A stretch of 64,000 nt of DNA from Myxococcales bacterium (GTDB lineage: Bacteria > Myxococcota > Myxococcia > Myxococcales > Myxococcaceae). Within the stretch, counting starts at the first letter, position 1. The number at the start of each line of letters is the position of its first letter. This document shows, piece after piece, positions 3,101-36,746 of the stretch. A model generated the notes under the pieces. That model did no database searches. It had not been told where the DNA came from and saw only the letters and a program-made list of their open reading frames with translations. The stretch spans positions 1 to 64,000 of the forward strand of contig JACPVI010000046.1 of assembly GCA_016191815.1 (NCBI GenBank), in the 5' to 3' direction. The position numbers were made by a program, and so were the translations under genes.

Positions 3101-6100
3101 CCAGGATGACGAACGGGGTATCCTCGCCGGCAAACCGCTGGTGGCGGGGACGTTCCCCATGAGCCTCCAGGTCGAGGACGCCAAGGGCCGGGCGGACGTC
3201 GCGGACTTCATCCTTCGGGTGTTTCCGGTTCGATTCAAACTCTCGGCGGTGGAGCCGCCGGCAGTCGTCCACCCGGGGGACCGGGTGGAATTCACCATCA
3301 CCGCCGCCGGCGCGAACGCCGGCACGGTTCGCTTCTCGCTCCACTCGGGCTCGCTGCCGCCCGGGCTTGCCTTGAGCGAGCAGGGGACCATCTCGGGGGC
3401 CGTTTCCATGGAGAACGCCGTGGGAGTGCACAATTTCGTGGTCGAGGCGAGGGACGGGACGGGCGCCAGCGGGCTGGGCGCATTCACCTTGGAGGTGGTC
3501 GAGTCTCCGCGGAAGGTGGGCTGCAGCTCGACCGGGAACGCGCCCTGGGCGCTGCTCGGGCTGTTCTCACCGCTGCTGCTGATCAGGCGGCGGGCCGTCA
3601 GCCTCCTCGCGGCGATGCTCGTGCTGGCGATCCCCATCACCGCGGGCGCCCAGGGGCAGCCGAGCTACCAAATCGTGGGCCCGAACTCGGCGACCTACAG
3701 CCCGCTGGCGACTGGTACATCGCTCAGCCAGATCACGACCTACTCGGGCCAGGCGATCACCATCGGCTTCGATTTCAAGTTCTATGGCCAGACCTTCACC
3801 ACGGTGACGGTGTCGCAGCACGGGTACATCGCCTTCGCGGGCGATGCGGGAGAGTCCTACAACTACGGCATCCCGCACTCCTACAGCGGCAGCTACTACC
3901 CCCAGACCTTCATCGCGGCCTGGTGGGACTCGCTCAACAAGACCACCGGCTCGGTGATCCAGTACCGCACCGCGGGGACTGCACCGAAGCGCGTCACCAC
4001 CATCGAGTGGAAAGACGTGATCAGCTCCTACACGACCACGAAGTTCAGCTTCCAGATCCACCTGTACGAATCCACCAATCAGATCCGCTTTGCCTACGGG
4101 ACTACCGCCCCGGCCAGCGCGACCGCCTCGGTGGGAATCCAGAACGCCCCGTCGGACGGAATGGCGGCGCTGCCCTGCACCACCTCGACTTCCGGCACCT
4201 GCGGCCCGACCGCCTTCCCCTCGAACCAGGCGATCGACTTCTTCCTCCCGGCGGACCTGGTGGTGGGGAGCATCACCGGCGACCAGACCGGCTACGCGGG
4301 CGTGGCGTTCCGCTCCACCGCGATCCTCAAGAACAACGGCGGCCGCGAGGCGCAGGGCGCCAAGGTGCGCTTTCACCTCTCCACCGACACCCTGTGGGAC
4401 ACCGGCGATCCGGCGATCGGCGAGTCCAGTCCGGTGAACTTGAGCACCGGCCAGGAGGCCCTGGTGACGGCCAACGCGCCCATCCCCACCGGCACCGCGC
4501 CGGGCAACTACTTCCTCCTCGCGCTCGCGGACCCGGACAAGACCATTCCCGAGCAGGATGAGGGCAACAACGTCTCCGCGCCCATCATCCTCAGGGTCGG
4601 ACCGCCCACGCCGGACCTGGTGGTGTCGGGAGTGTCGAGCCCCACCGGCGCCACTCCCGGTCAGGCGCTCTCCATCCCCCGGGTGATCACCAACATCGGC
4701 AACGCGGCGGCCACCGCGGCGTTCAGCTACACCTATTTCATCTCGGACAACTCGGTGGTCACCATCTCCGACGTCCCGGTGAGCACCGCCAGCATCGCCT
4801 CGCTGGGGGCGGGCGCCTCGGACACCAGGACCGACTCCATCACCGTCCCCACCAACCTCCCCGCCGGGAAGTACTGGGTCGGCGCTTGCGTGGACTACGA
4901 CCCCGCCGCGACGCCTACCTCCAAGGTGACCGAGATCAGCGAGGTGAACAACTGCGCCACCGCTCCCTCGGGCTTCATCCTCAACACCGGCGCGCTGGCG
5001 GTGATCACCAAGACCTTGCCCACCGCTACCCAGTACTCGCCCTACGGCCTCAGGCTCCAGGCCACCGGCGGGGACGGCACCTATGGCTGGTCCCAGAGCG
5101 GAGGCCAGCTCCCCGCCGGGATCACCCTCTCCTCGGCGGGGGACCTGGTGGGCACGCCCTCCACCACCGGCAGCTTCGGCTTCACCGTCCAGGTCTCGAG
5201 CGGCGGTGCCACCGCCAGCGAGACCTTGAGCCTCCAGGTCACTCCCTCCAACCTCCCGCTGGCGATCGTGGACCAGGAGCTTCCCACCGCCGAATTCGCC
5301 CGCTCCTACTCCGCGCAGCTCGTGGCGGTGGGAGGAAAGCCGCCCTACGTATGGAAGCTCGCCGCGGGCTCCAAGCTCCCCGCCGGGCTGGCGCTCTCCA
5401 CCGATGGCCAGGTGGAGGGAAGGGCGAGCGAGGCAGGAGAGTTCCCCTTCTCGGTCGAGCTGTCGGATGCGGCAGGCGGGCGCGCGACGAAGGACCTCCG
5501 GGTGCGAGTGGTGACGCCGGCGTCCTTGCACATCGCCACCTCGAAGCTGGCGACCGGCTATCTCCGGCGCGAGTACTTGCAGGCGCTGGTGGCGGTAGGT
5601 GGCCGCGCGCCGTACGACTGGTCGGTGGTGAAGTTCCAGCAGCTCGCCGAGAGCCCGACCGAGCAGCCGGGCAAGGCGGAGACGGCGCTGCCTCCGAACT
5701 TCGGGATCAAGATCGAGGAGGACGCGCAGGGCCAGGACATGCTCCGCGGGCTCCCCGCCAAGGCCGGCCTTTACGCTCTCACCTTGCGGGTGCAGGACGC
5801 GGCCGGGAACGAGGACATCACCACGCTCCCCTTGCTGATCAGCTACGACGATGCGATGGCCATCACCACCCTGATGCTCCCGGACGCGTTCGTCGGTCAC
5901 CCCTACAGCGCACGCCTCTCGCACAACGGCGGCGCCCAGGCGGTGGACGTGCAGTTCAGCCTGCCCTGCGTCAAGCAGGTGGCCCAGGACCTGGAGAACT
6001 TCGGCTGCGCTCAGACCGAGCTGACCCAGACCCTGCCGCCGGGCCTGTTCCTCGGAGCGGACGGCGTCCTCTCGGGCACTGCGGCTCCCCCCAACGTCCC

Positions 6101-6317
6101 CAATGCGGTCGACGCCAACGGCGACCTGCAGCCGGTGGTGTACAGCTTCCTGGTGAAGGTGACCGACGCCTCCGGGCGGCAGGACGTGCGCGGGCTGTCG
6201 ATCAAGGTGCGGCCGGACTACGACAAGGTGAAGGAGGGCGGCTGCGCAGGGGCGGGGATGGCTCCCTCGCTATTCGCGCTGCTCGCCGTGGCCGGGTGGA
6301 TGAGGCGACGCCGCTAG
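195..6317 (+). CDS. Giant surface protein: CARDB and putative-Ig domains, two MYXO-CTERM units fused in frame
   Basis: The product is 2040 residues and probably exported and displayed at the cell surface. Residues 1-22 form a signal peptide ending AQALG before Q23. The first half has an N-terminal beta domain, about four CARDB-like adhesion domains (starts such as PDLVVEDV, VDLVALSV, ADLVAESV), then four putative-Ig (He_PIG) domains with the LPxGIxL..DGxLxG signature. Residues 1109-1133 are a MYXO-CTERM-like tail (GCSS, hydrophobic stretch, RRR). It is followed without a stop by a second signal-peptide-like stretch (about 1134-1152, ending ITAGA before Q) and a second, paralogous set: N-terminal domain, two CARDB and four He_PIG domains, and a final tail GGCAGAG...GWMRRRR at the true stop. 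It therefore looks like two tandem paralogues joined after loss of the first stop. An in-frame ATG at 3615 could still start the second half alone. The RBS GGCAGGAG precedes the start. Role in adhesion is inferred from domain type only. Confidence 0.9.
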   Translation: MKMHQRLSWAAAALLMCGQALGQSYTVGPPVSQPYTPLTGATNVSLTLSSYPDTDEGAATIPLGFSFPYYGSTYTSVIVHADGMVLFPPQTTCDGSSFDSDCYTNGSFPSSARAFHNFIAGWWEDLDGSNSTSLVRYSKPTASEIVIEWADWNYFSFSSSASFSLQIKLNASGLIQIHYGTHTGTGGAASAGFENSTGTQGANLLTCNPNCSNTNWPTNMLYTIGQPVQPDLVVEDVVLSGMTEGPSNLSFSIAPSFRNYGQNPANGFLWRAYLSTDRIKDASDPTIFTATATVSVPGGQTASATGSANISPKPGPGQYYVLVEADHTGVVAEASEANNVGSTLNYFTQGVDLVALSVSGPALSGPGNSMPVNVKYFNQGTTPAGSVELKVYLSANKTRDTGDFVLHTGTKTVGGGQTVDEVISIPVPSNVPGGDFYFLLEVDSAQAVAEASETNNLVASTAMVKMEQADLVAESVELQDPSTLMPTAVGYFGQPARLSVRIQNAGGADAKTFRVGVAISTDSNLSLLSDTIVHDEPVALIPAGTTRTVAFTFTVPIKDKTGKDFSTGSYYLFALVDSYSEVGELNESNNNMAVQGAVTMRAPAQDYAVRQLDAPLSAAVGELATVFRAIKNVGNVAGSAVSYRMYASANAIITSDDIPLGIVGAGGTVSESGSVTLGVGVEDRATETVKLPPTMPPGVYYLGCIIDVENSAAELDEANNALASATTVQVAPPALRVTTLQLPDGVEGRPYSFRLAAAGEQGPSSWSLDPLGGALPGGITLATDGTLGGSPTSAAVSAFTVLVTSGGRIAAARLVLRILPPTAQLEVTSTSLPPIINSPGLPYQGSVAAAGGVKPYSWRVAAGALPGGITLAADGVLSGTVRPGTQVGESKVTFEVSDSLGTLARSELKVRVVEPGALIIRTLVIPNALVGSEYLTDLSAQNADGKPVAKPLSWAVVSGRLPDGLSLSTQDDERGILAGKPLVAGTFPMSLQVEDAKGRADVADFILRVFPVRFKLSAVEPPAVVHPGDRVEFTITAAGANAGTVRFSLHSGSLPPGLALSEQGTISGAVSMENAVGVHNFVVEARDGTGASGLGAFTLEVVESPRKVGCSSTGNAPWALLGLFSPLLLIRRRAVSLLAAMLVLAIPITAGAQGQPSYQIVGPNSATYSPLATGTSLSQITTYSGQAITIGFDFKFYGQTFTTVTVSQHGYIAFAGDAGESYNYGIPHSYSGSYYPQTFIAAWWDSLNKTTGSVIQYRTAGTAPKRVTTIEWKDVISSYTTTKFSFQIHLYESTNQIRFAYGTTAPASATASVGIQNAPSDGMAALPCTTSTSGTCGPTAFPSNQAIDFFLPADLVVGSITGDQTGYAGVAFRSTAILKNNGGREAQGAKVRFHLSTDTLWDTGDPAIGESSPVNLSTGQEALVTANAPIPTGTAPGNYFLLALADPDKTIPEQDEGNNVSAPIILRVGPPTPDLVVSGVSSPTGATPGQALSIPRVITNIGNAAATAAFSYTYFISDNSVVTISDVPVSTASIASLGAGASDTRTDSITVPTNLPAGKYWVGACVDYDPAATPTSKVTEISEVNNCATAPSGFILNTGALAVITKTLPTATQYSPYGLRLQATGGDGTYGWSQSGGQLPAGITLSSAGDLVGTPSTTGSFGFTVQVSSGGATASETLSLQVTPSNLPLAIVDQELPTAEFARSYSAQLVAVGGKPPYVWKLAAGSKLPAGLALSTDGQVEGRASEAGEFPFSVELSDAAGGRATKDLRVRVVTPASLHIATSKLATGYLRREYLQALVAVGGRAPYDWSVVKFQQLAESPTEQPGKAETALPPNFGIKIEEDAQGQDMLRGLPAKAGLYALTLRVQDAAGNEDITTLPLLISYDDAMAITTLMLPDAFVGHPYSARLSHNGGAQAVDVQFSLPCVKQVAQDLENFGCAQTELTQTLPPGLFLGADGVLSGTAAPPNVPNAVDANGDLQPVVYSFLVKVTDASGRQDVRGLSIKVRPDYDKVKEGGCAGAGMAPSLFALLAVAGWMRRRR
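3519..3650 (+). other. Internal MYXO-CTERM-like sorting tail followed by internal signal peptide
   Basis: This junction lies inside the 2040-residue surface protein. Codons 1109-1133 read GCSSTGNAPWALLGLFSPLL then LIRRR, the tripartite pattern that normally ends a myxobacterial protein. Codons 1134-1152 read AVSLLAAMLVLAIPITAGA, a normal signal-peptide core with an AxA-type cleavage site. The Arg cluster could serve both as the end of the first unit and as the positive n-region of the second. An ATG sits at 3615-3617. A TGA exists one frame away at 3580-3582, so a single-base frame change would restore a stop near the expected place. Confidence 0.8.
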
Positions 6318-14159: not shown

Positions 14160-15068
<909 letters not shown>

Positions 15069-18694: not shown

Positions 18695-21600
18695 ATGTCT
18701 CGCCTGCCCACCCTCGTCGCCGTCGCGCTTCTGCTGACGCCGACTCACGCGCCGGCGCAGAGGCAGGGGCCGGCGCCGAGGAAGACCATGTCCTGGAACG
18801 AGATCGACAAGCTCGCCGGCGAGCAGAAGCTCGAAGCGGCGGCGACGGCGGCCCTCGCCCGGCTCGAGGAGGCCAAGAGGGCGGGAGCCGAGGAGGAGTG
18901 GGCCCGAGCGCTGATCCGGGTGACCCAGCTGCGGATCGGGCTCCACGGCTATGAGACCGCGGTCCGCTTCCTGAGGACGGAGCGCTGGCCCAAGGACCCC
19001 ACCCTCCGCGCCGCGCTGGGGCTGTATTACGCGGCGGCGCTCTCTCGCTATTCGCAGATGTACCAGTGGGAGATCCGCCAGCGGGAACGGGTGGAGTCCA
19101 AAGAGCCGGTCGACCTCAAGTCCTGGACGCTGGAGCAGATCCAGGTCGAGATCCAGCGCGCCTTCCAGGAGATCTGGGCCGAGCGGGAGGCGCTTGGCGG
19201 CCAGTCGGTCGGGAGGCTCGGCGAGTACCTGACGCCCTCGAACTACCCCGCCGGCATCCGCGACACCCTGCGCGACGCTGTGACGTACCTTTGGGTCGAG
19301 CACCTGGCCGACACCTCCTTCTGGCGGCCGGAGCACTCGAACGAGCTGTACCTGCTCGAGCTGGCGGCGTTGGTACGGGGAGAGCCGGCGAAGCCCGGCC
19401 AGGTAAAGCTGGAGGATCCATCGGTCCATCCGCTCCTGCGCATCGGCGCGCTGCTCGACGAGCTGGAACGCTGGCACGCTTCGGAGGGGAGAAAGGAGGC
19501 GGCGCTCGAGGCGCGGCTGCAGCGGGTGCAGGTGCTCCACCGGAGCTTCACCGAAGCCGAGGATCGGCAGGTCATCCGGAAGGACCTCGAGGCCAGGCTT
19601 CCCGACTATCGCAGGCAGCCCTGGTTCTCCGCCGGCATGGCGGTGCTGGCGGAGATGCTCCGCGACGGAGGGGACGCAGCGGGCGCCCGGAAGGCCGCCG
19701 CCGAGGGCGCGCTGGCTTTCCCACAGTCCGCCGGAGGGCAGCGCTGCGCCCATCTGGTGGCGTCGATCGAGGCCCCCGACTTCCAGCTCGCGTCGATGTC
19801 CACCGATGGGCCGGGCCGGCGCTCGATCGAGGTGACCGCCAAGAACTTGGCCAAGCTTCACTTCCGCGCCTACGCGGTGGATCTCGAGCAGTGGCTGGCC
19901 CGTTCGCGCGACTACAACTTGCTCCCCGCCGGGCAGGCGCTCCTGGGATTGGTGCGCGGCTCACCTCCAGCCCACTCGTGGGCGGTGCAGCTCCCGGCCA
20001 CGCCCGACTATCGGCCGCACAAGACCTACGTCACGCCTCCCATGAGCACACCGGGCCTGTACGCGGTGGTGGCCTCGGCCCGCGGAGACTTCGCCGAGAA
20101 CGAGAACCGGCTGGTGGGGGTCAACCTGGTGGTGAGCGGGATGGTGCTGGTGGTTCGCGACCTTCGCCAGGACGGAGTGGAGGTGTCGGTGCTCTTTGGG
20201 GAGGGCGGTGCGCCGGTGGCGGGCGCGGAGGTGCGACTGTATCGGCTCGACTACAACCGGGTCCACGAGGTGGTCGAACGCGCGAACAGCGATGCGCGAG
20301 GAGTGGTGGCGTTCAAGGGCGAGGGAAGGGAGCCGTACGCCTCATACTTCCTCTTGGCCCGGAAAGGAGCGGACCTCGCGCTCGCCTCGCAGGCTTTCAA
20401 CTTCGGGCAGCAGCGGGAGCCTGCGGAGGTCCGCTCCTCTGTCGTGTTCACCGACCGGAGCGTGTACCGGCCGCTGCAGAAGCTCATGTGGAAGGTGGTG
20501 GCCTTCCGCGGCGACGGCGGCAGCGCGCGGTTCCAGACGCTCGCGGACTCTGAAATCACCGTGTCGCTCCACGATCCGAACTACCAGGTGGTCGAGACGC
20601 GGAAGGTGCGGACCAACTCCTATGGATCGGCCTCGGGGGAGTTCACCATCCCTACCGGGCGGTTGCTCGGCCTGTGGCGGATCTCCACCCAGCCCGGCGG
20701 GGGCGCCTCCGTTCGGGTGGAGGAGTACAAGCGGCCGACCTTCGAGGTGTCGTTCAGGGACGCCCGCCAGCCGTTGCGGCTCAACCGGCCCGCCGCGCTC
20801 ACCGGCGAGGCGCGCTACTACTTCGGGCTCCCGGTCACTTCTGGGAACGTGAAGTGGAAGGTCAGCCGGACGCCGATGGCCCCGTGGTGGTGGAGCTACT
20901 TCGGGGCGGGCGACCGCGCGCAGGTGATCTCCGCGGGGATGACCGCGCTCCACGACGACGGGACGTTCGAGATCGCCTTCACCCCTCTGGCCGACGAGCG
21001 CGCCGGGGGAGCCAAGGAGCTGACCTACCGGTACGAGGTGACCGCGGACGTCACGGACGAGGGAGGGGAGACCCGGTCGGCGTCGCGATCGGTTCGACTC
21101 GGCCTTTTGGCAGTGGAGGCGCGCATCGAGCCGGAGGGCGCCTTCCTTCGCGCCGGGGAGAAGAGCGCGGTCGCCATCACCAGGACCGATCTCGACGGGG
21201 CGCCCCGCCCGGGGAAGGGGAGGTGGCGGGTCCTCGCGCTGGACCAGCCCAAAGAGGCGGTGCTGCCGGCGGATGAGCCGGTTCCCGAACCGCCGCCCGA
21301 GCTGCGAGCGCAGCCAGGTCCCGAGGTCGTCACGCCCGGGGATCGCCAGCAGCCAAGATGGCAGACACGCACCTCCGCGCAAGAGACGATGCGGAGGTGG
21401 CGAGATGGAGGCGAGAGAGCCGCCGGCGCCATTGAGCACGGCCCAGATGGAGTCGCCAACCTTTCACTCCCGGCGCTGGAGCCAGGGGCCTATCGGATTC
21501 GGTACGAGACTACCGACGAGCTCGGTTCGAAGTACGAGACATCGCGCGAGTTGATCGTCGCCGGCCCGAGCAGTCCTCTCGAGGTGCCGCTGGCGCTGCT

Positions 21601-24600
21601 CGCCGAGCGGCCGACGGTCAAGGTCGGCCAGACGGCGCGCTTCTTCGTACACTCGGGCCTCGCGGCCCAGCCGATGGCGCTCGAGGTGTACCGCGGGGGA
21701 AGGCGGGTGGAGCGGCGCACCCTCACCGGAGGGAAGGATGCCTCGGTGGTGGAGCTGCCGATCAAGCCGGAGGACCGCGGCGGCTTTTCGCTCTCGCTGA
21801 CCGCGGTGCGGGATTTCCAGCACCTTCACCTCGTCGCACCAGTCTTCGTCCCTTGGGACGACAAGGAGTTGAAGGTCGAGCTGTCGACCTTCCGGGAGCG
21901 AATCCGCCCCGGCTCGAAGGAGCAGTGGCGCATCACCGTGCGCGGCGGGCCCGAGCACAAGCCTTTTGCGGCCGCGGCCGAGTTGCTGGCGTACATGTAC
22001 GACGAGTCGCTGGACGTCTTCGCGCCGCACGCGCCGCCTTCGGTTGGCTCGCTCTACCCGCGGAGGACGGATTCGGCGTGGACCCGGGCCAGCCTGGGCC
22101 AGGCGTGGGCGCAGTGGCTCTCGTCGGGAGAGTGGTTCAGGTTGCCTCCGTATCAGGGCCTCCATGGCGATCTCCTCAAGTTCGAGGAGAGCTACGGCAT
22201 CGGGGGCCCGGGCGCCCGGTTCCGGGGGAGGACGCTCGGCGTCGCGCGCGCGATGCGGGCCCCTCCCTCTCCGGGGGCACCGGTGCCCGCGCTCCCGGCG
22301 GCAGAGCCCGCCGGTCAGCCCGCGCAGGAGGAGGCCGCGCGGGACAAGGTGTCCGGGAGTCCAGCGGCCGGCGAGGCGCAGCCGATGGGCGAGCAGGGCA
22401 GAAAGGTGGAGCTGAGGAGCGACTTCTCCGAGACGGCCTTCTTCCAGCCGCACCTCATCGCCGGCCGGGACGGATCGGCGACCCTGGAGTTCACCGTGCC
22501 CGACTCGGTCACCGGCTGGAACGTCTGGGTGCACGCCTTCACCCGCGACCTGCGCGGCGGCTCGGTCACCAGGAAGACCCGCAGCGTGAAGGAGTTGATG
22601 GTCCGGCCGTACTTGCCGCGGTTCCTTCGCGAGGGCGATGCGGCGGCGATCAAGGTGGTGGTGAACAACGCCTCTGCGGCGGCGGTGCGCGGCGAGCTTC
22701 GCTTCGAGATCATCGACCCCGAATCGGAGCAGTCCTTGCTCTCGGAGTTCGCGAGCACCGCGGCGGGCCCCCAGCCGTTCTCAGCCGAGCCCGGCAAGGC
22801 CGCCACACTCACCTTCCCCATCGTCGCGCCGAAGCGGGTGGGGCAGGTGGCGTTCAGGATCACCGCCACCGCCGGCGACTTCTCCGATGGAGAGCTGCGG
22901 CCTCTGCCGCTCTTGCCCTCGAGGATGCACCTCGCCCAGTCGCGCTTCGTCACCTTGAGGGGGAAGCAGCTGCGCTCGATGTCCTTCCCGGACATGGCGA
23001 AGGGCGACGACGCGACGCTCCTGCATGAGCAGTTGGTGGTGACCGTGGACGCGCAGCTCTTCTACTCGGTGCTGAGCGCGCTGCCTTACCTGAAGGCCTA
23101 TCCGTACGAGTGCACCGAGCAGACGCTCAATCGCTTCCTCTCGGCGGGCATCGTGTCCTCGGTGTACCGGGACAACCCGCTGGTGGCGCGCATGGCCAAG
23201 CAGATGTCCAAGCGCGAAACGAGGTTCGAGACGTTCGACGCGCAGGATCCCAACCGGAAGATGGCCCTGGAGGAGACGCCCTGGCTCATCGAGGCCAAGG
23301 GCGGGAAGCGCCCCGACGCGGAGGAAGATCTCACCAACGTGCTCGATCCGCGCGTGGCGGAGGCGGAGCGGGCCTCGAATCTCGCCAAGCTCCGCAAGGC
23401 CCAGACCTCCCTTGGCGGCTTCCCATGGTGGCCGGGCGGACCGCCCTCGCCCTACATGACGCTCTACATCGCCCACGGCTTCGCCAAGGCGTCGGAGCTG
23501 GGCGTCGAGGTGCCCAAGGACGTGGTGCAGCGCGCCTGGCAATACCTGGCCCGGCACTTCCGCGAGGAGTACGCGCACCGGATGATGAAGGAAGGGTGCT
23601 GCTGGGAGTTCCTCACCTTCCTCAATTACGTGGCCTCGAGTTATCCCGACCCGAGCTGGACCGGGGATGCGCTCACCGAGGCGGAGCGGAAGCAACTCCT
23701 CGACTTCAGCTTCAAGCACTGGAAGCAGCACTCTCCCTATCTCAAGGGCTACCTGGCGCTGACGCTCAGGCGCATGGGCCGGCCGGAGGACGCGGCGAAG
23801 GTATTCGATAGCGTGATGGACTCCGCGAAGACCACGCCCGAGGAGGGCACCTACTGGGCGCCGGAGGACCGCGCGTGGCTCTGGTACAACGACACCATCG
23901 AGACGCACGCCTTCGCCCTGCGGGCGCTGTTGGAGCTGTCGCCATCCGACCCCCGACGCGACGGCCTGGTGCAGTGGCTGCTCATCAACAAGAAGCTCAA
24001 CCACTGGAAATCGACCAAGGCCACCGCGGAGGTCATCTACTCGCTGGTGAAGGTCCTGCAGGGGGAGAAGGCGATCGGGGTCCGCGAGGACTCGACGGTG
24101 ACGATCGGCAAACAAAGAACAAGCTTCGTCTTCGAGCCGGACGAGTACACCGGGAAGCGGAACCAGATCGTGGTGCGCGGGCCGGAGATCGATCCCCGGG
24201 CGATGTCCACGATCACGGTGGAGAAGACGAGCAAGGGCTTCCAGTTCGCCTCGGCCACCTGGCACTTCTCCACTGAGCGGCTGCCGGCGGAAGGGAAGGG
24301 TGATCTGTTCGCGGTCTCCCGGAAGTACTTCCGCCGCGACAAGGCCGGACGCGAGGCGGTGCTCAGGCCGCTGGAGGAAGGACAGCGCCTGGTCCCGGGA
24401 GACGAGGTGGAGGTGCACCTGTCGCTGCGCTCGCGGCACCAAGCCGAGTACGTCCACCTGCGAGATCCTCGCGGCGCGGGCCTCGAGCCGGAGAACGCAG
24501 TCTCCCGCTACAGGTGGGACCTCGGCGTCGGCTGGTATGAGGAGGTCCGCGACTCGGGCACCAACTTCTTCTTCGAGTCGCTTCCGGCGGGCGAATACAC

Positions 24601-24736
24601 CTTCAAGTACCGGCTGCGGGCGAACCTGGGAGGCACCTTCCGGGTAGGGCCGGCGACGGTGCAGTCGATGTACGCGCCGGAGTTCGCTGCCTATTCAGCA
24701 GGTCAGGCGCTGACGATCGGAATCGGGGGAAGGTGA
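18695..24736 (+). CDS. Bacterial alpha-2-macroglobulin with thioester motif
   Basis: The product is 2013 residues from the ATG at 18695 (MSRLPTLVAVALLLTPTHAP; signal peptide ending APAQ). An upstream in-frame ATG at 18665 lies inside the hairpin and is unlikely. It is a periplasmic or surface protease trap: the thioester traps the attacking protease after bait cleavage. Visible parts are an N-terminal helical extension, stacked MG beta domains (including VEEYKRPTFEVSF), and the A2M domain (EFTVPDSVTGWNVWVHAFTR; VRPYLPRFLREGD). The thioester is CTEQ, C1473 to Q1476, in AYPYECTEQTLNR. An alpha-alpha toroid (GGFPWWPGGPPSPYMTLYI) and a C-terminal receptor-like beta domain follow. A low-complexity Pro/Ala stretch near residue 1200 may be the bait or linker. 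No penicillin-binding protein 1C gene is adjacent, unlike the E. coli pair. It is a single gene. Confidence 0.93.
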   Translation: MSRLPTLVAVALLLTPTHAPAQRQGPAPRKTMSWNEIDKLAGEQKLEAAATAALARLEEAKRAGAEEEWARALIRVTQLRIGLHGYETAVRFLRTERWPKDPTLRAALGLYYAAALSRYSQMYQWEIRQRERVESKEPVDLKSWTLEQIQVEIQRAFQEIWAEREALGGQSVGRLGEYLTPSNYPAGIRDTLRDAVTYLWVEHLADTSFWRPEHSNELYLLELAALVRGEPAKPGQVKLEDPSVHPLLRIGALLDELERWHASEGRKEAALEARLQRVQVLHRSFTEAEDRQVIRKDLEARLPDYRRQPWFSAGMAVLAEMLRDGGDAAGARKAAAEGALAFPQSAGGQRCAHLVASIEAPDFQLASMSTDGPGRRSIEVTAKNLAKLHFRAYAVDLEQWLARSRDYNLLPAGQALLGLVRGSPPAHSWAVQLPATPDYRPHKTYVTPPMSTPGLYAVVASARGDFAENENRLVGVNLVVSGMVLVVRDLRQDGVEVSVLFGEGGAPVAGAEVRLYRLDYNRVHEVVERANSDARGVVAFKGEGREPYASYFLLARKGADLALASQAFNFGQQREPAEVRSSVVFTDRSVYRPLQKLMWKVVAFRGDGGSARFQTLADSEITVSLHDPNYQVVETRKVRTNSYGSASGEFTIPTGRLLGLWRISTQPGGGASVRVEEYKRPTFEVSFRDARQPLRLNRPAALTGEARYYFGLPVTSGNVKWKVSRTPMAPWWWSYFGAGDRAQVISAGMTALHDDGTFEIAFTPLADERAGGAKELTYRYEVTADVTDEGGETRSASRSVRLGLLAVEARIEPEGAFLRAGEKSAVAITRTDLDGAPRPGKGRWRVLALDQPKEAVLPADEPVPEPPPELRAQPGPEVVTPGDRQQPRWQTRTSAQETMRRWRDGGERAAGAIEHGPDGVANLSLPALEPGAYRIRYETTDELGSKYETSRELIVAGPSSPLEVPLALLAERPTVKVGQTARFFVHSGLAAQPMALEVYRGGRRVERRTLTGGKDASVVELPIKPEDRGGFSLSLTAVRDFQHLHLVAPVFVPWDDKELKVELSTFRERIRPGSKEQWRITVRGGPEHKPFAAAAELLAYMYDESLDVFAPHAPPSVGSLYPRRTDSAWTRASLGQAWAQWLSSGEWFRLPPYQGLHGDLLKFEESYGIGGPGARFRGRTLGVARAMRAPPSPGAPVPALPAAEPAGQPAQEEAARDKVSGSPAAGEAQPMGEQGRKVELRSDFSETAFFQPHLIAGRDGSATLEFTVPDSVTGWNVWVHAFTRDLRGGSVTRKTRSVKELMVRPYLPRFLREGDAAAIKVVVNNASAAAVRGELRFEIIDPESEQSLLSEFASTAAGPQPFSAEPGKAATLTFPIVAPKRVGQVAFRITATAGDFSDGELRPLPLLPSRMHLAQSRFVTLRGKQLRSMSFPDMAKGDDATLLHEQLVVTVDAQLFYSVLSALPYLKAYPYECTEQTLNRFLSAGIVSSVYRDNPLVARMAKQMSKRETRFETFDAQDPNRKMALEETPWLIEAKGGKRPDAEEDLTNVLDPRVAEAERASNLAKLRKAQTSLGGFPWWPGGPPSPYMTLYIAHGFAKASELGVEVPKDVVQRAWQYLARHFREEYAHRMMKEGCCWEFLTFLNYVASSYPDPSWTGDALTEAERKQLLDFSFKHWKQHSPYLKGYLALTLRRMGRPEDAAKVFDSVMDSAKTTPEEGTYWAPEDRAWLWYNDTIETHAFALRALLELSPSDPRRDGLVQWLLINKKLNHWKSTKATAEVIYSLVKVLQGEKAIGVREDSTVTIGKQRTSFVFEPDEYTGKRNQIVVRGPEIDPRAMSTITVEKTSKGFQFASATWHFSTERLPAEGKGDLFAVSRKYFRRDKAGREAVLRPLEEGQRLVPGDEVEVHLSLRSRHQAEYVHLRDPRGAGLEPENAVSRYRWDLGVGWYEEVRDSGTNFFFESLPAGEYTFKYRLRANLGGTFRVGPATVQSMYAPEFAAYSAGQALTIGIGGR

Positions 24737-27174: not shown

Positions 27175-28401
27175 CTAGCGCCCCTTGCGCGCCAGCCCGC
27201 CCGCCACTTCGCCAGGGACCGATTCGTCCTGGCTGGCGTCCGAGGTGTCCGGCGGGTCCTCGTCGGAGGGCTCGCCTGGTTCGCCCGCGCCACCGAGAAC
27301 CGGAGGGGCCCCGCCGCCTCCATAGCCACCCTGCTTGCGGGCGAACGTCTCCTGGCGAATGCGGATCAGCCCCTCCTCGCCGATGTCCAAGAAGGCCTTC
27401 ACCACCTCGGGATCGAACTGCGTTCCGGTGCACCGCTGGATCTCCGCGATGGCGTTCGCGAAGGTGGTGCCCCGCCGGTAGGGGCGATCGGAGGTCATCG
27501 CGTCGAGCGTGTCCGCCACCGAGAAGATCCGCGCCCCGATGTGGATCTCGTCGCCCTTGAGGTTTCGGGGGTAGCCCTGGCCGTCGAACCGTTCCTGGTG
27601 CGAGAGGACGATCTCCGCCGGGATCGAGAGGAACGGAATCTGGCAGATCATCTGGTGCCCGATGCCGGGGTGCTTGCGCATCTCCGTCCACTCGTCGGGG
27701 GTGAGCTTGCCGGGCTTGAGGAGCACCGCGTCGGGGACGCCGATCTTCCCGATGTCGTGCAAGAGCGCGCCGCGGCCGATCTCCTCCAGTTCCTGGCCGC
27801 GGATGCCGAGCTTGAGCGCGATCGCCGAGGTGTACTGCACCACCCGCTGCGAGTGGTCGCTGGTCTCGTGCTCGCGCGCGTCGAGCGCCGCCACCAGCGC
27901 GAGCAGGGTGTTGTGGTAGGTGGTGGCGATGTCCTTGAGGGCGTTGCGAAGCTCGGTGGTGCGGTCCCGCACCTTCCGTTCGAGCTTCTTCTGGTAGCGC
28001 CGGCGCGCCAGCTCGATCCGGCGCTTGGCCAGCGCGCGCTCGATCGCGCGGATGAGGTCGGTCAGCTTCGGCGGCTTGAGCAGATAGTCCACCGCGCCGC
28101 GGCGGAGGCAGTCCACCGCCGCCTCGGTGTCGCCGTAACCGGTGAGCATGATCACCGAGGTGTCGGGGAAACGCTGCCGGAAGCTCTCCAAGAGCCAGAG
28201 CCCGTCCTTCCCGGGCATCTTCATGTCGCTGATGACCAGCGGCGTCTCGTCGGCTTCGGCCAGCTCGATGGCCATCTCGGCGCCGCTCGCCACCACGCAG
28301 TTGTAGCCCTCCTCCTTGAGGAGGACGGAGATCACGTCGCGCACCGACTCGTCGTCGTCCACGATCAGGATGCGGGGCGGGAGCGGCGGGATGGCTTCCA
28401 C
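27175..28401 (-). CDS. Response regulator with HD-GYP c-di-GMP phosphodiesterase domain
   Basis: The product is 408 residues from the GTG at 28401; a longer frame upstream is rejected because it has no family-like sequence. The receiver domain is at about 10-125 (ILIVDDDESVRDVISVLL; phospho-acceptor Asp in VISDMKMPGKDG; LTGYGDTEAA). A helical linker follows (RRYQKKLERKVRDRTTELRN). The HD-GYP domain is at about 175-350 with HDIGKIGVPDAVLL and HQERFDGQGYPRNLKGDEIH, so hydrolysis of cyclic di-GMP is expected. The C terminus is Gly/Pro/Asp-rich and disordered. A histidine kinase partner is not nearby. It counters the cyclase at 14-15 kb in principle. It is divergent from lpd across 207 bp. Confidence 0.92.
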   Translation of the reverse strand: MEAIPPLPPRILIVDDDESVRDVISVLLKEEGYNCVVASGAEMAIELAEADETPLVISDMKMPGKDGLWLLESFRQRFPDTSVIMLTGYGDTEAAVDCLRRGAVDYLLKPPKLTDLIRAIERALAKRRIELARRRYQKKLERKVRDRTTELRNALKDIATTYHNTLLALVAALDAREHETSDHSQRVVQYTSAIALKLGIRGQELEEIGRGALLHDIGKIGVPDAVLLKPGKLTPDEWTEMRKHPGIGHQMICQIPFLSIPAEIVLSHQERFDGQGYPRNLKGDEIHIGARIFSVADTLDAMTSDRPYRRGTTFANAIAEIQRCTGTQFDPEVVKAFLDIGEEGLIRIRQETFARKQGGYGGGGAPPVLGGAGEPGEPSDEDPPDTSDASQDESVPGEVAGGLARKGR

Positions 28402-30106: not shown

Positions 30107-30580
30107 ATGGCAATCGAGGTGACAGTCGAACGCTCCAGCGAGGGGACTCCGACCCTGACCTTGGCGGGCAGCTTGGACGAGCACTGCAACCTGGGGGCGG
30201 ACGTCGCCGAGCCTCCGGCCGGGGCGGTGCTCAACCTCGCGGGGATCCGCCGGATCAACTCGGTGGGGGTGCTCCACTGGCTCAAGTGGATCAAGGCCCT
30301 GACCGAAGTGAAGGAGATCTGGGTGGACGCCGTGCCGTACAACCTGGTGGTGCAGGCGAATCACCTGGTGGACTTCTTCGGCAAGGCCAAGGTGCGCTCC
30401 TGCCTGGTGCCGTATTACTGCCCTCGCTGCAAGACCAACGTGGAGCGGGAGGTGAAGGTGGAAGAGGTCGGGCCCTCGCAGGCGCCGGTGAAGCGCTGCG
30501 AGAAGTGCAACACCGAGATGGATTTCGACGAGGTGGACGAGTACTTCGCCTTCCTGCGAAGAGACGATGCCCTCAAGTGA
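30107..30580 (+). CDS. STAS (anti-anti-sigma-like) protein with C-terminal zinc ribbon
   Basis: The product is 157 residues from the ATG at 30107 (MAIEVTVERSSEGTPTLTLA). Residues 1-100 have a STAS-like order of strands and helices, with LNLAGIRRINSVGVLHWLKW at the place where SpoIIAA-type proteins carry the phosphorylated Ser; the Ser is kept (NSVG). Residues about 105-140 hold a zinc ribbon, CPRCKTN and CEKCNTEMDFDE. The last 14 bp overlap the next gene, which ends in an HATPase domain of the anti-sigma kinase type. The pair therefore resembles a partner-switching module. No sigma factor or phosphatase is beside it. The role is inferred from arrangement. Confidence 0.78.
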   Translation: MAIEVTVERSSEGTPTLTLAGSLDEHCNLGADVAEPPAGAVLNLAGIRRINSVGVLHWLKWIKALTEVKEIWVDAVPYNLVVQANHLVDFFGKAKVRSCLVPYYCPRCKTNVEREVKVEEVGPSQAPVKRCEKCNTEMDFDEVDEYFAFLRRDDALK

Positions 30581-33263
30581 ACCGGCCCTCTCCGCCGTGG
30601 TGCTCGATCCGCAGCCCGGACAGGCGCGGCGGCTGGAGGACTCGGTGCGGGCGGCAGGCTTTCTGGCCCGACCGGCGCTCTCCCTGGACGACTTCTGCAG
30701 CGCGCTCGGAGGTGGGGGCTCGCGGGTGGGGGTGTTGGCGTTCGAGACGCTCTGGCCTCAGCCACAAGAGAAGCTGAAGGCGGTGCGCGCCGCGGCCCGC
30801 CGGGCCCGCCTGGTAGTGGCGCACGCCGACGACTCGGGGCGGCTCAGGCTGGGCAAGAGGCTGTGGTCCTCGGGCGCGATCGACTTCTTCGTGCCGCGGT
30901 CGATGCCCTCGGCCGAGTTCGCCGAGGTGATGCGGCAGGCGGACGCAGACGCGCTCTTGGCCGCCGAGTCTCCCTCCGGGGCCGCGCGGGACCCGGCGGG
31001 GCTCCTCAAGCTCCTCCGCGGGCTGTCGGCCTCGTTCGCGAACCAGCGCACCGTGGCCGGCCTCTTGAGGGAGCTGCACGTCCGGCTGACTTCGCTGGTG
31101 GACTACAGCCTGCTCCAGGTCTTCGTGCCCTCGGGCAACGACTTCACGCTGTTCGTCTTCCAGACCAGGCCCTTGGCGCACGAGCTGGTGTGGCGGCTGG
31201 TGGAGCAGACCTGCGAGGTGCTCTCGCACCACGCCGGCCGGCCGGTGAAGCCCGAAGAGCTGCAGATCGACGACTCCACTCCGGTGAGCGGGATCGCCCC
31301 CGAGGGGGATCAGGCGAACGCGCTGGAGTGGCGGCCGGTGGTGTTCCCGATGCTGGCCCCCAATGGCCTGGTGGGCTGCATGAGCCTCTTAGTGCCCTCC
31401 TCCCAGGCCGAGGCGTCGCGCCCCGACGATGCTTTGGAGTTCGTCTCCTACCAGCTGGCGACCGCCCTGGGCAGAGTCCAGCTCCTGGAGACCGCGGCGC
31501 GGGCCTCGCTGGTGGACTCTTTGACCGGCTGCCACAACAGGCGGTACTTCGAGCAGGTGCTCTCCTCGGAGTGGAAGCGGAGCACGCGGTACGCGCTGTA
31601 CCTGTCGGTGGCGGTGGTCGACATCGACGCCTTCACCCAATTCAACGCCATCTACGGCCACCAGCTCGGGGACGAGATCCTCCGCCAGCTGGCCGGCTTC
31701 CTCGCCTCCCAGCTTCGAGAGACGGATCACCTGGCGAGGCTGGAGGGAGCGCAGCTGGCGGTGCTCTTGCCGGAGACCGGCGCCCCCGAGGCGAGCGCGG
31801 TCCTGGAGCGGCTGCGGATCCTGGTCGGGAGCAAGGCGCTGTTGGTGAACGAGCAGCACGGCCCCTTGCAGATTTCGGTCAGCGCCGGGGTGGCGTCGTA
31901 CCCGGCCTGCGCGGTGGACTCCGCGGAGGGGCTCCTGGAGCGCGCGCGCACCGCGCTCCGCACGGCGAAGGCGGCGGGGCGCGACCGGGTGTGCATCGCT
32001 GCCTTGCCGGGTTCCGAGGCAGTGCAGGCGGAGCTGGTGGGGCACTCCGAGACGGCGGAGATGCGGAACTTCCCGCGGATCCCCACCCGCATGAACGTCC
32101 GCTACCTGGAGGTGCCGGACTTCGAGCAGGGCATCGCCCGGGTGATGACTGCGGACATCAGCGCGGGCGGGGTGGCGCTGATGGGTGGGTCGGGGCAGTT
32201 CAAGAAGAATGCGTTCGGGCTGGTGTTCATCGAGAACGCACAGAAGGCGATGCTCACCCGGGTGGTCTGGACCGCGGACGGAGCGGACGGCTCGCGGCGC
32301 GCAGGCCTGCGCTTCGTCAGCGTGAGCGAGCTGGACCAGATGGCCGACGTCCCTCGGGACCGGACCGGAGGGCGGCGCGCCCTGGTGGTGCTGCCGAATG
32401 ACGAGATCCGTCTGATGGTGGCTCGGGTCCTTCGGGCCGCTCAGGTGCAGGCCACCATCCTCGAGGAGGGGGAGGAGTGGCCGGCCGACCTCATGCTCGA
32501 TCAGCTCGCGCTGGTGGTCGCCACCCAGGGCGGCCTGCGCGGGCCGCTCGCCTCGAAGCTGCAGGGGATGAGCGAGCACGCCGGGACGCGAGTCGTGTTG
32601 ATCAACGAATCTGGCGACCGGCGGCAGGCGGTTACCTCCATCCTCTCGCACCGCCTGCGGCACCTGGTGGCCGCCGACGAGGCCTTCGATGAGGCGCTGT
32701 TCGCCACCCTGAACAAGCTTCTCCTCGGCGAGTACTTCGGCATCCGCAAGTACCTCTTGTGGGGGAGCCGGTCGCAGAGCTGGACCGTCTCCTACGGGGA
32801 AGACCGGTCGGCGGTGCTGGAAGGGGTAAGGCAGCTCGCCAGCGAGGTGCGGTGCCACCCGCGCGTCACCGACCTGCTCGTCACCGCGGTGGACGAGATG
32901 ATCATCAACGCGCTTTACCGGGCGCCGCCGGAATCGGGGGCCCAAGGAAAGCCGGTGGCGGTGGAATGCGGCTCGGACGGGCGGCTCTTGGTGGTCTCGG
33001 TCCTCGACGAGCACGGTCGCTTCAAGCCCTCGCACCTCTATGCGGGGCTGGGGCGGGCGCTCGAGAACGAGCGAAACACCATCCCCGACGACTCGGACAG
33101 CGCGAGCCTGGGGTTCCGGATCATGCTGGAGGCCCTGAGCCAGCTCGCGATCAACGTGGAGCCGGGCCGCGCTACCGAGATCATCGGGATCGTCGACTTG
33201 CGCAAGAGCCTGCGCGAGTACCGCTCCAGCTCTCCGAGCGTCAACCTGTTCACCCGAGAATGA
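30567..33263 (+). CDS. Multidomain signalling protein: receiver-like, GAF-like, degenerate GGDEF, PilZ, receiver-like, HATPase
   Basis: The product is 898 residues. Residues 1-125 are receiver-like without a clear phospho-Asp. Residues 145-305 are GAF-like (LLRELHVRLTSLVDYSLLQV). Residues 310-480 form a GGDEF domain with a normal start (DSLTGCHNRRYFEQVL), but the active-site loop reads LEGAQLA (393-397 EGAQL) instead of GG[D/E]EF, so it should not make c-di-GMP. A PilZ domain follows with RxxxR at 504-508 (RIPTR) and DISAGG near 530, both c-di-GMP-binding residues present. Residues 600-730 are a second receiver-like region. Residues about 745-880 are an HATPase of the RsbW type (TDLLVTAVDEMIINAL). 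It is translationally coupled to the STAS protein upstream. It may pass a c-di-GMP signal to that STAS protein (inference). It is convergent with the Ser/Thr kinase gene, 3 bp away. Confidence 0.85.
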   Translation: MPSSEPALSAVVLDPQPGQARRLEDSVRAAGFLARPALSLDDFCSALGGGGSRVGVLAFETLWPQPQEKLKAVRAAARRARLVVAHADDSGRLRLGKRLWSSGAIDFFVPRSMPSAEFAEVMRQADADALLAAESPSGAARDPAGLLKLLRGLSASFANQRTVAGLLRELHVRLTSLVDYSLLQVFVPSGNDFTLFVFQTRPLAHELVWRLVEQTCEVLSHHAGRPVKPEELQIDDSTPVSGIAPEGDQANALEWRPVVFPMLAPNGLVGCMSLLVPSSQAEASRPDDALEFVSYQLATALGRVQLLETAARASLVDSLTGCHNRRYFEQVLSSEWKRSTRYALYLSVAVVDIDAFTQFNAIYGHQLGDEILRQLAGFLASQLRETDHLARLEGAQLAVLLPETGAPEASAVLERLRILVGSKALLVNEQHGPLQISVSAGVASYPACAVDSAEGLLERARTALRTAKAAGRDRVCIAALPGSEAVQAELVGHSETAEMRNFPRIPTRMNVRYLEVPDFEQGIARVMTADISAGGVALMGGSGQFKKNAFGLVFIENAQKAMLTRVVWTADGADGSRRAGLRFVSVSELDQMADVPRDRTGGRRALVVLPNDEIRLMVARVLRAAQVQATILEEGEEWPADLMLDQLALVVATQGGLRGPLASKLQGMSEHAGTRVVLINESGDRRQAVTSILSHRLRHLVAADEAFDEALFATLNKLLLGEYFGIRKYLLWGSRSQSWTVSYGEDRSAVLEGVRQLASEVRCHPRVTDLLVTAVDEMIINALYRAPPESGAQGKPVAVECGSDGRLLVVSVLDEHGRFKPSHLYAGLGRALENERNTIPDDSDSASLGFRIMLEALSQLAINVEPGRATEIIGIVDLRKSLREYRSSSPSVNLFTRE

Positions 33264-33266
33264 GCC

Positions 33267-36200
33267 TCAGAGCCGCTCCAAGATGGCCCGGAGGGTCCCC
33301 AGGGCGAGCAGCACGAGCCTCCGGGGATCCGCGGCCGACCGATGGGGCTGGGCGCGAAGGGCCGCGGCGCCCGAGGAAGCCCGCTCGAGCGCCTTGGAGG
33401 CCGCTTGGGCGAGTGGCCTGGCCTGATCCGCCGAGCCCTGGGCGAGCGCGGCACGGGCCCTGGCCGCCTCCAGGTGGGCGCCGGCCACCTCTCCGAGCAG
33501 CCGCGCTGCCTCGTCGAAGGTGAGCTTGAGCTGGGCCTCGGCCTTGGAGGCGGCGGGCAGCGCCTCGGCCAGCCGATCCACGTCGGCGAGCGCGGCCGCC
33601 AAGAGCGCGGAGGCGGAGCTCGCCCTTCGCCATTCTCCCAGCTCCTCGAACAGCTTCGCGGCCCGGCGATAGGGCCGCACCGCCTCGGCGGGGCGGAACT
33701 GGCTGTGCTCGAGCGAGCCGAGCTCGAGCAGCACCAACGCCTCCCCTCTGGTGCCTCCCACCCAGCGGTACAGGCTGGCCGCGCGCAAGCACGCCTCCCG
33801 CGCCTCGGAGGGGAGGCCGAGCGAGTGGTAGGCAGCGGCGAGCTCGGCCTGGGCCCCGGCCTCGCCCCGGGCGTCCTCGGCGGCGCGGTGGGCTTCGATG
33901 GCCCGGTCGAGCTGGAGGATGGCGGCGGCACGGGTGGCGCTGGCTGCCCTTCCGAGGGCGTCCAGCAGGGCGGCCTCGCCCTGGCGCTCCAAGCGCGCGC
34001 GCCGCTTCTCCAGCGCCGCGTTGAAGTGTGAGCAGGCGAGCGCGGCCTGCCCCGAGTCGAGCGCCGTCCAACCCAGGACCTCCGCGCCCGCGGCTTCTCC
34101 GAGGGGGTGATCTCGTCCCTCGAGCAGGGCGAGCGCTCGAGTGGCCCGCTCGCGAGTCTCCGCAGGCCGGCCGCGCAGCCTGAGCAGCAGCGCCTCTTCG
34201 ATGAGGAGGTCCGCCTCGGCGAGCGTGTCCTTGGCCTCCCGGGCGAGCTTGAGGGCGGCGTCGGCGTCGGCCGCCGCTTCGGCGAGCTTGCCCAGCACCC
34301 TCCGGGCTCGCCCCCTCGCGGAGAGGGCGCTTCGCAGCAACGCAGCAGAGCCGGAGCGGCGCGCGGCGCCGACCGCACGGTCCAGGACGGAGTGGCGCTC
34401 CGGCCTGAGGCCGCGCCAGCCCAACGCGGCGTCCAGCGCCAGCGCCAGCGCCACGGTCGCCGCCGGCGCCTCGAGCGCCGGGTTCTGCGCCGCCTCGGGT
34501 TCGAGCTGGGAGAGCGCGGCCCGGAGATTCTCCTCCTCCGCGGCGAGCGCCGCGATGGCCTGCCTGTGCGGGGCCACGGGCGGCGGCGCCAGGCAGTGCC
34601 CGGCCAGCTCGAGGAAGTATTCGTTCCGGCGGGCCTGGGCGGCGGTCACCTCGGGCTCGGCTCGCTGCGCGAGGGCGGCCCGGAACAGCTCGTGAAGCTC
34701 GAACCTGTCCTGCCCCGCTTCCCGGCAAGAGGAAAGAAAGAAGCGACTGCACAGCGCGCGGAGCCTCGGGAGCGCGGCTCCCTCCCCGATGGCTGCCAGG
34801 GCGGCTTCGGCGGTGAAGCTGGACTCGAAGGCGGCGCAACCTGCCAGGGCCGCGCGGTCCTCGGGGCGAAGGAGATCGACCGCCCAGCCGAGGGCGTGCT
34901 CGCTCCGTCCGCTCCGCCTGGCCGCGGAGATCCGCTCGAGCAGGAGTCCGGCTGGGTGGTGGCCAAGGATCCCGGCGGCCAGCTCCAGGGCGAGGGGAAG
35001 GCCTTCGAGGGCGGTCGCGACCAGCGCCAGCCTCTCGCGGTCGGCCGCTTCGGCACCGCCCCCGGCGGAGGCCAGCCGGGTGTAGAGGAAGCGCGAGGCG
35101 TCGGAGCTCTCGGAGCCCGTGGATGACTGCAAAGGTCCGAGCGGCAGCTTCGTCTCGTGGCTCAGCATGAGGGGAGATCGGGAGGTGACGAGGAAGCGAA
35201 TTGCAGGCGCCGTGGACAGCCACTTGCCCACGGTGGCGACCGTGTGCTCGCCCAGGTGCTCGAAGCCGTCGAGCACGACCAGCGCCTCTCCCCGGGCCCT
35301 GAGGGCGTGGCCGACCTGGAGCACCGCCTCCTCGGCGGAGGAGGCGAAGAGCGGGAAGCCCAGCGCGCGGGCGACGGCGGCGGCGATCCCCGTCACGTCT
35401 CGGGCTCCGCGGAGCATGGCGCGCCAGGCGCAGCAAAACTGCGACCGCCCCTCGGCGGAGCCCGAGGCCTGCTCGCGGCGATCGAGCTGTCCGAGCGCGA
35501 AGCGGCACGCCAGCCGGGACTTCCCGACGCCGCCCGGCCCGAGCAGGGTGACGAGGCGCTCGCCGCACAGGAAAAGCCGGGCGAGCTGAGACAGCTCCGC
35601 GACCCGGCCGAAGAACGATCCGGTGGGCTCGGCCAGGTTGGTGGCTGACGACCCGGCGGGCAGCTCGACCGTCCATTCGAGGTCCGGCGCTGCCGGGGAG
35701 GGCGCGGCGAGCATCACCTCCTGGCTTCCTGGGGAGTTGGCCGGCCGCGCGGCCACCGTCTCGACCGAGTCCTCGGTAGGCCACGCGGCCAGAGGCTCGG
35801 GCCCCGCTCCTTCGATGCCCGGCGGGGCGCGGTCGTGCCCCGAGGGAAAGAGCGCGTCCAGGAAGTGCTCCACGTCGCGCGCGGTCGCGGTGAGGCCTTC
35901 CCTGGCGATCGCCTCCTCGAGGGCAAGGCGCATCGCATCGGCGTCGGGGAACCGGTCCTCCGGCGAGCGCTGCAACGCGCGCAGACACACTTCCTCGAGG
36001 CCGGCCGGCAAGTCCTGGCGCAAGGACGAGGGCTTGGGAATGTCGCAGTTGGTCACCGCGCGGAGGATGGCCAGCTCCGAAGGAGCTTCGAACAGCCGCC
36101 GGCCGGTGAAGGTCTCCCAGAGCACCGCGCCGAGCGCGAAGATGTCGGACCGCGCATCGATGGCGCGGGCCTCGGCCTGCTCGGGAGACATGTAGGCAGA

Positions 36201-36746
36201 CTTGCCGCGGATCAGCCCGGTGCGTGTCACCTGCACCCGGTCGGCCGCCTTGGCCACGCCGAAGTCGATGAGCTTCACCTCTCCGGCGAAGCTGACCAAG
36301 ATGTTATGCGGTGAGACGTCGCGGTGGATGATGCCCAGCGGCCTGCCGTCGCGGTCCTTGGCGCGGTGGGCGAAGTCCAGCGCGGAGGCGGCGTCGGCCA
36401 CGATGCGACAGGCGGCTCCGAGCGGGACGGCGAGGTCCGCCCTGCGCGCGCGGTGGACGATCCGGCGGAGGTCCCTCCCGTCGACGTACTCCAGGGCCTG
36501 GTACCAGGTGCCGCCCACCTCCCCCAGCTCGAACACCCGGGCGATGTGGGAGTGATCCAGCCTGGCCGCGATGCGGGCCTCGTCCAAGAAGAGCTGGAGG
36601 AACTCCGGCTGCTCGGCCAGGTGGGGCAGGATGCGCTTGATGACCAACAGGGTCTCCGAGCCCCTGAGCCGCGCGAGCAGGACCTCCCCCATGCCGCCCG
36701 TGGCGATCTTGGCCAGGAGCTCGTATTTGCCGAAAGCGCCAGGCAT
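33267..36746 (-). CDS. Eukaryote-type Ser/Thr protein kinase fused to NB-ARC-like ATPase and TPR repeats
   Basis: The product is 1159 residues from the ATG at 36746; upstream in-frame sequence is not family-like. The kinase is at 5-270: glycine loop ATGGMGEVLLA, Lys in LLVIKRIL, catalytic loop IIHRDVSPHNILV, Mg loop LIDFGVAK, activation segment RGKSAYMSPEQAEAR. A Pro/Ala linker follows. The P-loop ATPase has Walker A LLGPGGVGKSRLACRF, Walker B ALVVLDGFEHLG and FLVTSRSPLML, the STAND/NB-ARC-like order also seen in LuxR- and AfsR-type regulators. The last 450 residues are Ala/Leu-rich TPR-like helices. No membrane helix or DNA-binding domain is seen. Targets are unknown; the FHA protein at 14-15 kb is one candidate in principle. 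The layout is typical of myxobacterial kinases. Confidence 0.9.
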   Translation of the reverse strand: MPGAFGKYELLAKIATGGMGEVLLARLRGSETLLVIKRILPHLAEQPEFLQLFLDEARIAARLDHSHIARVFELGEVGGTWYQALEYVDGRDLRRIVHRARRADLAVPLGAACRIVADAASALDFAHRAKDRDGRPLGIIHRDVSPHNILVSFAGEVKLIDFGVAKAADRVQVTRTGLIRGKSAYMSPEQAEARAIDARSDIFALGAVLWETFTGRRLFEAPSELAILRAVTNCDIPKPSSLRQDLPAGLEEVCLRALQRSPEDRFPDADAMRLALEEAIAREGLTATARDVEHFLDALFPSGHDRAPPGIEGAGPEPLAAWPTEDSVETVAARPANSPGSQEVMLAAPSPAAPDLEWTVELPAGSSATNLAEPTGSFFGRVAELSQLARLFLCGERLVTLLGPGGVGKSRLACRFALGQLDRREQASGSAEGRSQFCCAWRAMLRGARDVTGIAAAVARALGFPLFASSAEEAVLQVGHALRARGEALVVLDGFEHLGEHTVATVGKWLSTAPAIRFLVTSRSPLMLSHETKLPLGPLQSSTGSESSDASRFLYTRLASAGGGAEAADRERLALVATALEGLPLALELAAGILGHHPAGLLLERISAARRSGRSEHALGWAVDLLRPEDRAALAGCAAFESSFTAEAALAAIGEGAALPRLRALCSRFFLSSCREAGQDRFELHELFRAALAQRAEPEVTAAQARRNEYFLELAGHCLAPPPVAPHRQAIAALAAEEENLRAALSQLEPEAAQNPALEAPAATVALALALDAALGWRGLRPERHSVLDRAVGAARRSGSAALLRSALSARGRARRVLGKLAEAAADADAALKLAREAKDTLAEADLLIEEALLLRLRGRPAETRERATRALALLEGRDHPLGEAAGAEVLGWTALDSGQAALACSHFNAALEKRRARLERQGEAALLDALGRAASATRAAAILQLDRAIEAHRAAEDARGEAGAQAELAAAYHSLGLPSEAREACLRAASLYRWVGGTRGEALVLLELGSLEHSQFRPAEAVRPYRRAAKLFEELGEWRRASSASALLAAALADVDRLAEALPAASKAEAQLKLTFDEAARLLGEVAGAHLEAARARAALAQGSADQARPLAQAASKALERASSGAAALRAQPHRSAADPRRLVLLALGTLRAILERL

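Follow-up and report, generated by a model that had tools for sequence, protein, structure and literature searches.

Partner-switching systems such as RsbV/RsbW/RsbU and SpoIIAA/SpoIIAB bring together a STAS protein with a serine at its phosphorylation site and an RsbW-type GHKL kinase, encoded by paired genes. Here we describe a gene pair at positions 30107–33263 of a 64,000-nucleotide stretch (the window) from a Myxococcales bacterium (GCA_016191815.1, contig JACPVI010000046.1, positions 1 to 64,000) that shares with these systems the STAS serine, a kinase of the same type with the same catalytic residues, and the pairing of genes; several relatives of the pair also have an adjacent SpoIIE-type phosphatase. 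The window pair differs from them in that its STAS protein carries a Cys4 zinc ribbon (STAS-Zn) and its kinase is fused to receiver-like, PilZ and GGDEF domains, while no sigma factor is evident and the STAS-Zn domains of relatives are fused to Ser/Thr kinases.

In the known links that we found between cyclic di-GMP (c-di-GMP) and STAS/GHKL partner switching, information runs from the switch to synthesis of the messenger. The Pseudomonas systems SiaABCD and HptB-HsbR-HsbA-HsbD tie a partner switch to a diguanylate cyclase, with c-di-GMP synthesis as the output (PMC8457831, PMC5085249); in contrast, the cyclase of the window protein is predicted to be dead and a PilZ domain stands in the kinase chain. 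In Streptomyces, c-di-GMP acts on anti-sigma-type control, as in RsiG-sigma WhiG and RmdB (PMC13232838), although the abstract of that paper does not mention a GHKL kinase paired with a STAS protein. Fusions of STAS to eukaryotic-like kinases were noted in Sorangium cellulosum in 2010 (PMC2887360) and probably correspond to the STAS-Zn kinase fusions reported here; the accessible portion of that paper does not mention a zinc ribbon, a paired GHKL kinase or a c-di-GMP link.

We regard the window pair as a form of partner switching made of known parts in an apparently new domain combination, and on balance we lean towards a switch in which c-di-GMP is read in the kinase chain and sets the phosphorylation and binding of STAS-Zn. 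This reading builds on the architecture of the pair, its conserved residues, its pairing across Myxococcota and its recurrent links to c-di-GMP domains. The initial annotation of this DNA had placed the two genes correctly, with their overlap of 14 bp, and its string of GGDEF, PilZ and HATPase domains stands, although a receiver-like domain without the phospho-acceptor aspartate had been overlooked. It also knew of no named system with this exact string; we found none in the literature, nor a description of the STAS-zinc-ribbon family, in a search that left most subscription journals outside. The features of the pair are the following.

30107–30580, + strand: open reading frame (ORF) with ATG start, STAS protein with C-terminal Cys4 zinc ribbon, 157 amino acids (aa)
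30567–33263, + strand: ORF with ATG start, multidomain kinase protein, 898 aa
30567–31499, + strand: N-terminal part, residues 1–311, putatively receiver-like then GAF-like, judged from the sequence
31509–31988, + strand: GGDEF domain, degenerate (EGAQL, 393–397) with RETD (384–387) kept, from Pfam
32064–32336, + strand: PilZ domain with RNFPR (500–504) and DISAGG (530–535), from Pfam and alignment
32376–32780, + strand: receiver-like domain (pREC) without phospho-acceptor aspartate, from profile and fold
32781–33257, + strand: RsbW/SpoIIAB-type GHKL ATPase with E777 and N781 (N box), D814-xx-G817 (G1 box) and SLGF 847–850 (G2 box)

In the mechanism that we propose, the GHKL domain of the 898-aa protein would act as an RsbW-like serine kinase, and the STAS-Zn protein encoded just upstream would be its substrate and binding partner, with Ser52 as the putative phosphorylation site. 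The receiver-like domain lacks the aspartate in the window copy, and the signal would instead be read through c-di-GMP binding by the PilZ domain and possibly by the I-site that the presumably inactive GGDEF domain retains. The cellular c-di-GMP level would then determine the share of STAS-Zn that is phosphorylated and, through it, the partners that STAS-Zn binds. If this is true, a kinase that itself carries c-di-GMP receptors would run in the direction opposite to the Pseudomonas systems and offer a direct route from messenger to protein switch. The family is widespread in Myxococcota, a phylum rich in Ser/Thr kinases and PilZ proteins, the connections among which are little understood.

The Pfam scan placed the GGDEF domain at residues 315–474 (3.8e-37) and the PilZ domain at residues 500–590 (3e-6). 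Because the active site of the GGDEF domain reads EGAQL instead of GG[D/E]EF, a degeneracy already recognized in the initial annotation, this domain should not make c-di-GMP; its inhibitory RxxD site (I-site), RETD, is intact five residues upstream. Both PilZ-type receptor motifs are present, RxxxR as RNFPR (R500, R504) and [D/N]xSxxG as DISAGG. The annotated DISAGG and the presence of an RxxxR motif thus stand, but the latter had been assigned to RIPTR, which begins at the second arginine of the true motif and whose own second arginine is not kept in the paralogue; RNFPR aligns with RRFQR of the paralogue and with RRHQR and RVHPR of other PilZ domains. The receiver-like domain between PilZ and HATPase was identified by a weak family-profile match to solved receivers (E 0.026) and by fold comparison (Z 5.5–5.9), and its phospho-acceptor column is occupied by T in the window protein and by G in the three nearest relatives, whereas 9 of the 37 family members have D there. 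Residues 1–311 gave no Pfam match above the cut-off and may comprise a receiver-like and a GAF-like part, and no HisKA domain was found in the 898-aa protein in a Pfam scan at E 1.

Among 195 Myxococcota genomes, the exact domain string of the window protein was found in this genome only, in two copies. The second copy (L063, C59) shows 41% overall identity and keeps GGEEF intact within its chain. Related c-di-GMP fusions and operons exist in other families of the phylum, PilZ-kinase fusions of other orders among them; in total, GGDEF or PilZ is fused, or lies in an adjacent same-strand ORF, in 12/52 family loci. PilZ directly follows the kinase on its C-terminal side in L169, L170 and L189 (Pfam) and in L188 (by eye), and it forms the N-terminus of kinase proteins of about 1500 aa in L131 and L132 (Pfam). 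Locus L187 encodes GGDEF-PilZ-STAS, L168 kinase-PilZ-STAS and L137 a run of kinase, STAS and cyclase genes, and the window's own genome contains a STAS-Zn-Ser/Thr kinase-PilZ arrangement (L066/L183). In L134 (G096:C18, 712–10610) a same-strand run comprises a GAF-SpoIIE phosphatase, a STAS-Zn Ser/Thr kinase, a receiver-kinase, STAS-Zn, a second STAS-Zn Ser/Thr kinase and a PilZ-FHA protein. The link in L062 is weak: a second STAS-Zn gene there is preceded, just upstream, by a long ORF that matches GGDEF only in part. GGDEF domains occurred within 5 kb in 8/52 family loci and in 0/40 control loci (p 0.008). These arrangements support the view that c-di-GMP domains were joined to the kinase/STAS family several separate times.

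The reverse direction is the main rival to our reading: the switch would govern how much c-di-GMP this cyclase, or a different one, makes, as in SiaABCD and HptB/HsbD, and the GGDEF-PilZ part would serve as output or feedback and not as the sensor. Locus L137 (G064:C151, 3913–6427) fits such an order, since its receiver-kinase, STAS-Zn and PAS-GGDEF cyclase with intact GGEEF are consecutive on the same strand in a siaBCD-like layout; paralogue L063, which retains GGEEF in the kinase chain, fits as well, and in Pseudomonas the cyclase SiaD is activated by SiaC binding (PMC8457831) and HsbD intersects the HptB cascade (PMC5085249). However, the window copy has lost the cyclase site with the I-site and PilZ motif intact, and several relatives have PilZ fused to the kinase without any cyclase. 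We consider the reverse direction unlikely for the window pair.

With regard to the kinase itself, our analysis supported a C-terminal domain that is RsbW-like in fold with its catalytic residues kept. HATPase_c_2 was detected at residues 749–824 (3.9e-5, Pfam), with a score that narrowly missed the curated cut-off when the protein was scanned and narrowly passed it in the six-frame search. Fold comparison of the kinase model with VIA gave Z 12.1 to RsbW (6m37, 113 residues, 2.6 A) and 11.6 to SpoIIAB, and weaker matches to LvrC (8.4, over the GHKL domain), SiaB (8.1) and the first histidine kinase (6.6); the fold is thus nearer RsbW than SiaB, to which it is structurally related. The top Foldseek matches were Leptospira LvrC (PDB 9qih), the best, and SpoIIAB. 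LvrC resembles the window protein in combining a receiver and a GHKL domain in one chain, but that chain has 294 residues and contains neither PilZ nor GGDEF. Profile-profile comparison with RsbW (hhalign, with PDB chains 1til and 6m36 as reference sequences) gave 92.8% and placed E777, N781 and D814 opposite the corresponding Glu, Asn and Asp in SpoIIAB and RsbW, with the G2 boxes aligned, in agreement with the RsbW-like HATPase first annotated here. A HMMER search of the PDB with the family profile matched receivers and did not reach GHKL proteins. A lack of ATP-binding residues had been named beforehand as what would refute the kinase assignment, and the assignment was not refuted: the catalytic Glu, the Mg-binding Asn and the adenine-binding Asp are kept in 37/37 family kinases, as are the Gly of the G1 box and the second Gly of the G2 box.

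The 157-aa partner gave no Pfam match above the cut-off, and stand-alone STAS-zinc-ribbon proteins of the family fall below every Pfam cut-off. The family profile nevertheless matches the solved anti-sigma-factor antagonists 4hyl, 1sbo and 1th8 and aligns the putative phosphorylation site Ser52 (RINSVGV) opposite the phosphorylated serine of SpoIIAA. A structure model (mean predicted local distance difference test score, pLDDT, 80) returned SpoIIAA 1tid and the Haliangium antagonist 4hyl as the best Foldseek matches. The C-terminal part contains two C-x2-C knuckles (cysteines 105, 108, 131 and 134), and these four cysteines are nearly invariant among 70 family domains. The serine, already reported as kept in the initial annotation, is found in 56 of the 69 domains that span this position, and almost all copies that stand alone or come first in a tandem have it; later copies in tandem arrays account for 12 of the 13 exceptions and lie mostly in Ser/Thr kinase fusions, as if one copy served as the switch beside a degenerate partner.

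Pairing of the two proteins was analyzed in 146 Myxococcota genomes with a distance limit of 4 kb, the full family profile being searched within this phylum only. A STAS-zinc-ribbon match lay within that distance of 60 of the 74 kinase-domain matches, on the same strand in 58, so that the co-occurrence of homologues expected from the window pair was indeed found. Both domains were present in 55 of 60 genomes (Fisher p 3e-28, with the relatedness of the genomes ignored), and they are fused in one protein in two cases, L050 (G018:C86) and L070 (G000:C1). The similarity matrices of the partners correlate, with r 0.80 overall and r 0.43 without the Myxococcaceae copies (0/2000 permutations each), a correlation to which shared ancestry contributes. 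The kinase/STAS-Zn pair is a conserved module. Its closest relatives, L061 and L062, were identified by a scan of one genome per species with exact peptide patterns, which recovers close relatives only; each has adjacent genes for STAS-Zn and a receiver-kinase of about 300 residues with no GGDEF or PilZ in the chain. Because these kinases lack both domains, the GGDEF-PilZ part was either gained by a smaller kinase or has disappeared from L061 and L062.

Several observations weigh against the c-di-GMP-responsive kinase that we favour. The G1 box is D-x-[FYH]-G and not DxGxG across nearly the whole kinase family, and in the window G2 box, SLGF, the first Gly is replaced and the second kept, the window clade having S or N in place of the first; given these changes, ATP affinity may be altered. 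The AlphaFold model of the kinase is weak (mean pLDDT 56, built with 3 sequences), although of good quality over the initial part of the GHKL domain. PilZ is only weakly enriched within 5 kb (10/52 family loci against 3/40 controls, p 0.1) and is common in the window's genome, with 56 matches, so the case for c-di-GMP rests on fusions and operons and not on neighbourhood density; the 12 linked loci are also not independent, three coming from genome G088 and three from the window's genome. Finally, no SpoIIE/PP2C phosphatase was detected beside the pair or elsewhere in the window.

The unusual G1 box of the family and the degenerate G2 box of the window clade would also be compatible with a pseudokinase, the pair then being a c-di-GMP-controlled binding switch that works without phosphorylation; considering that all 37 family kinases share the Glu, Asn and Asp as well as the second Gly of the G2 box, and that the STAS serine is kept, we find this improbable.

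In other members of the family, a phosphatase is encoded close by. A SpoIIE-type phosphatase is adjacent in 7/52 family loci and occurs in 0/40 controls anywhere in 15 kb, and the window's genome has four strong SpoIIE matches elsewhere. In L064 (G000:C32, 1463–10996), which belongs to the window's genome, a HAMP-HisKA-HATPase-receiver x4-SpoIIE protein is encoded upstream of another kinase and of a STAS-Zn-Ser/Thr kinase fusion, all three genes having one orientation; judged by their domains, this single locus unites the predicted phosphatase, kinase and substrate of one switch. Separately, in L150 (G000:C58, 3054–13308) a STAS-Zn gene has a SpoIIE phosphatase and a number of short HATPase_c_2 proteins as neighbours, which is possibly a second complete switch locus; no informative match in the PDB was obtained for an RsbW-like neighbour at C58.

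Ser/Thr kinases are linked to the family in 24/52 loci, mostly by fusion to STAS-Zn. By analogy with these relatives, the switch more probably acts on a Ser/Thr protein kinase, or on some other c-di-GMP protein, than on a sigma factor. A classical switch, in which the kinase would be an anti-sigma factor released by STAS-Zn, agrees with RsbW and SpoIIAB as the nearest folds but is very doubtful, as relatives join STAS-Zn to Ser/Thr kinases instead and a sigma-factor profile, a single typed consensus of limited sensitivity, was not enriched (2/52 family loci against 2/40 controls). More broadly, we tentatively suggest as a possibility an undescribed phylum-wide family in which a receiver-RsbW kinase is paired with STAS-Zn, c-di-GMP is read directly by the kinase chain and Ser/Thr kinases replace sigma factors as targets, so that c-di-GMP, partner switching and Ser/Thr kinases would be joined in one module.

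The surroundings of the window pair include the following genes, among them the HD-GYP phosphodiesterase and the cyclase that had been annotated nearby, both of which are present.

33267–36746, − strand: Ser/Thr kinase with AAA/TPR region, convergent with the 898-aa gene, its end 3 nucleotides away
27175–28401, − strand: HD-GYP response regulator
about 14160–15068, − strand: GGEEF cyclase, 15 kb from the gene pair

The convergent Ser/Thr kinase is a possible partner of the window pair. Similar proteins with an FHA-like N-terminus are encoded 5–16 kb from the STAS-Zn/kinase pair in the window (14160–15068), in L061 (1319–2236) and in L062 (3–227) alike; the first two contain GGDEF, and the L062 copy is cut by the end of the locus. 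Their presence in three loci may reflect chance or conserved gene order. The window also encodes two predicted proteins of about 2000 residues each, at 195–6317 and 18695–24736.

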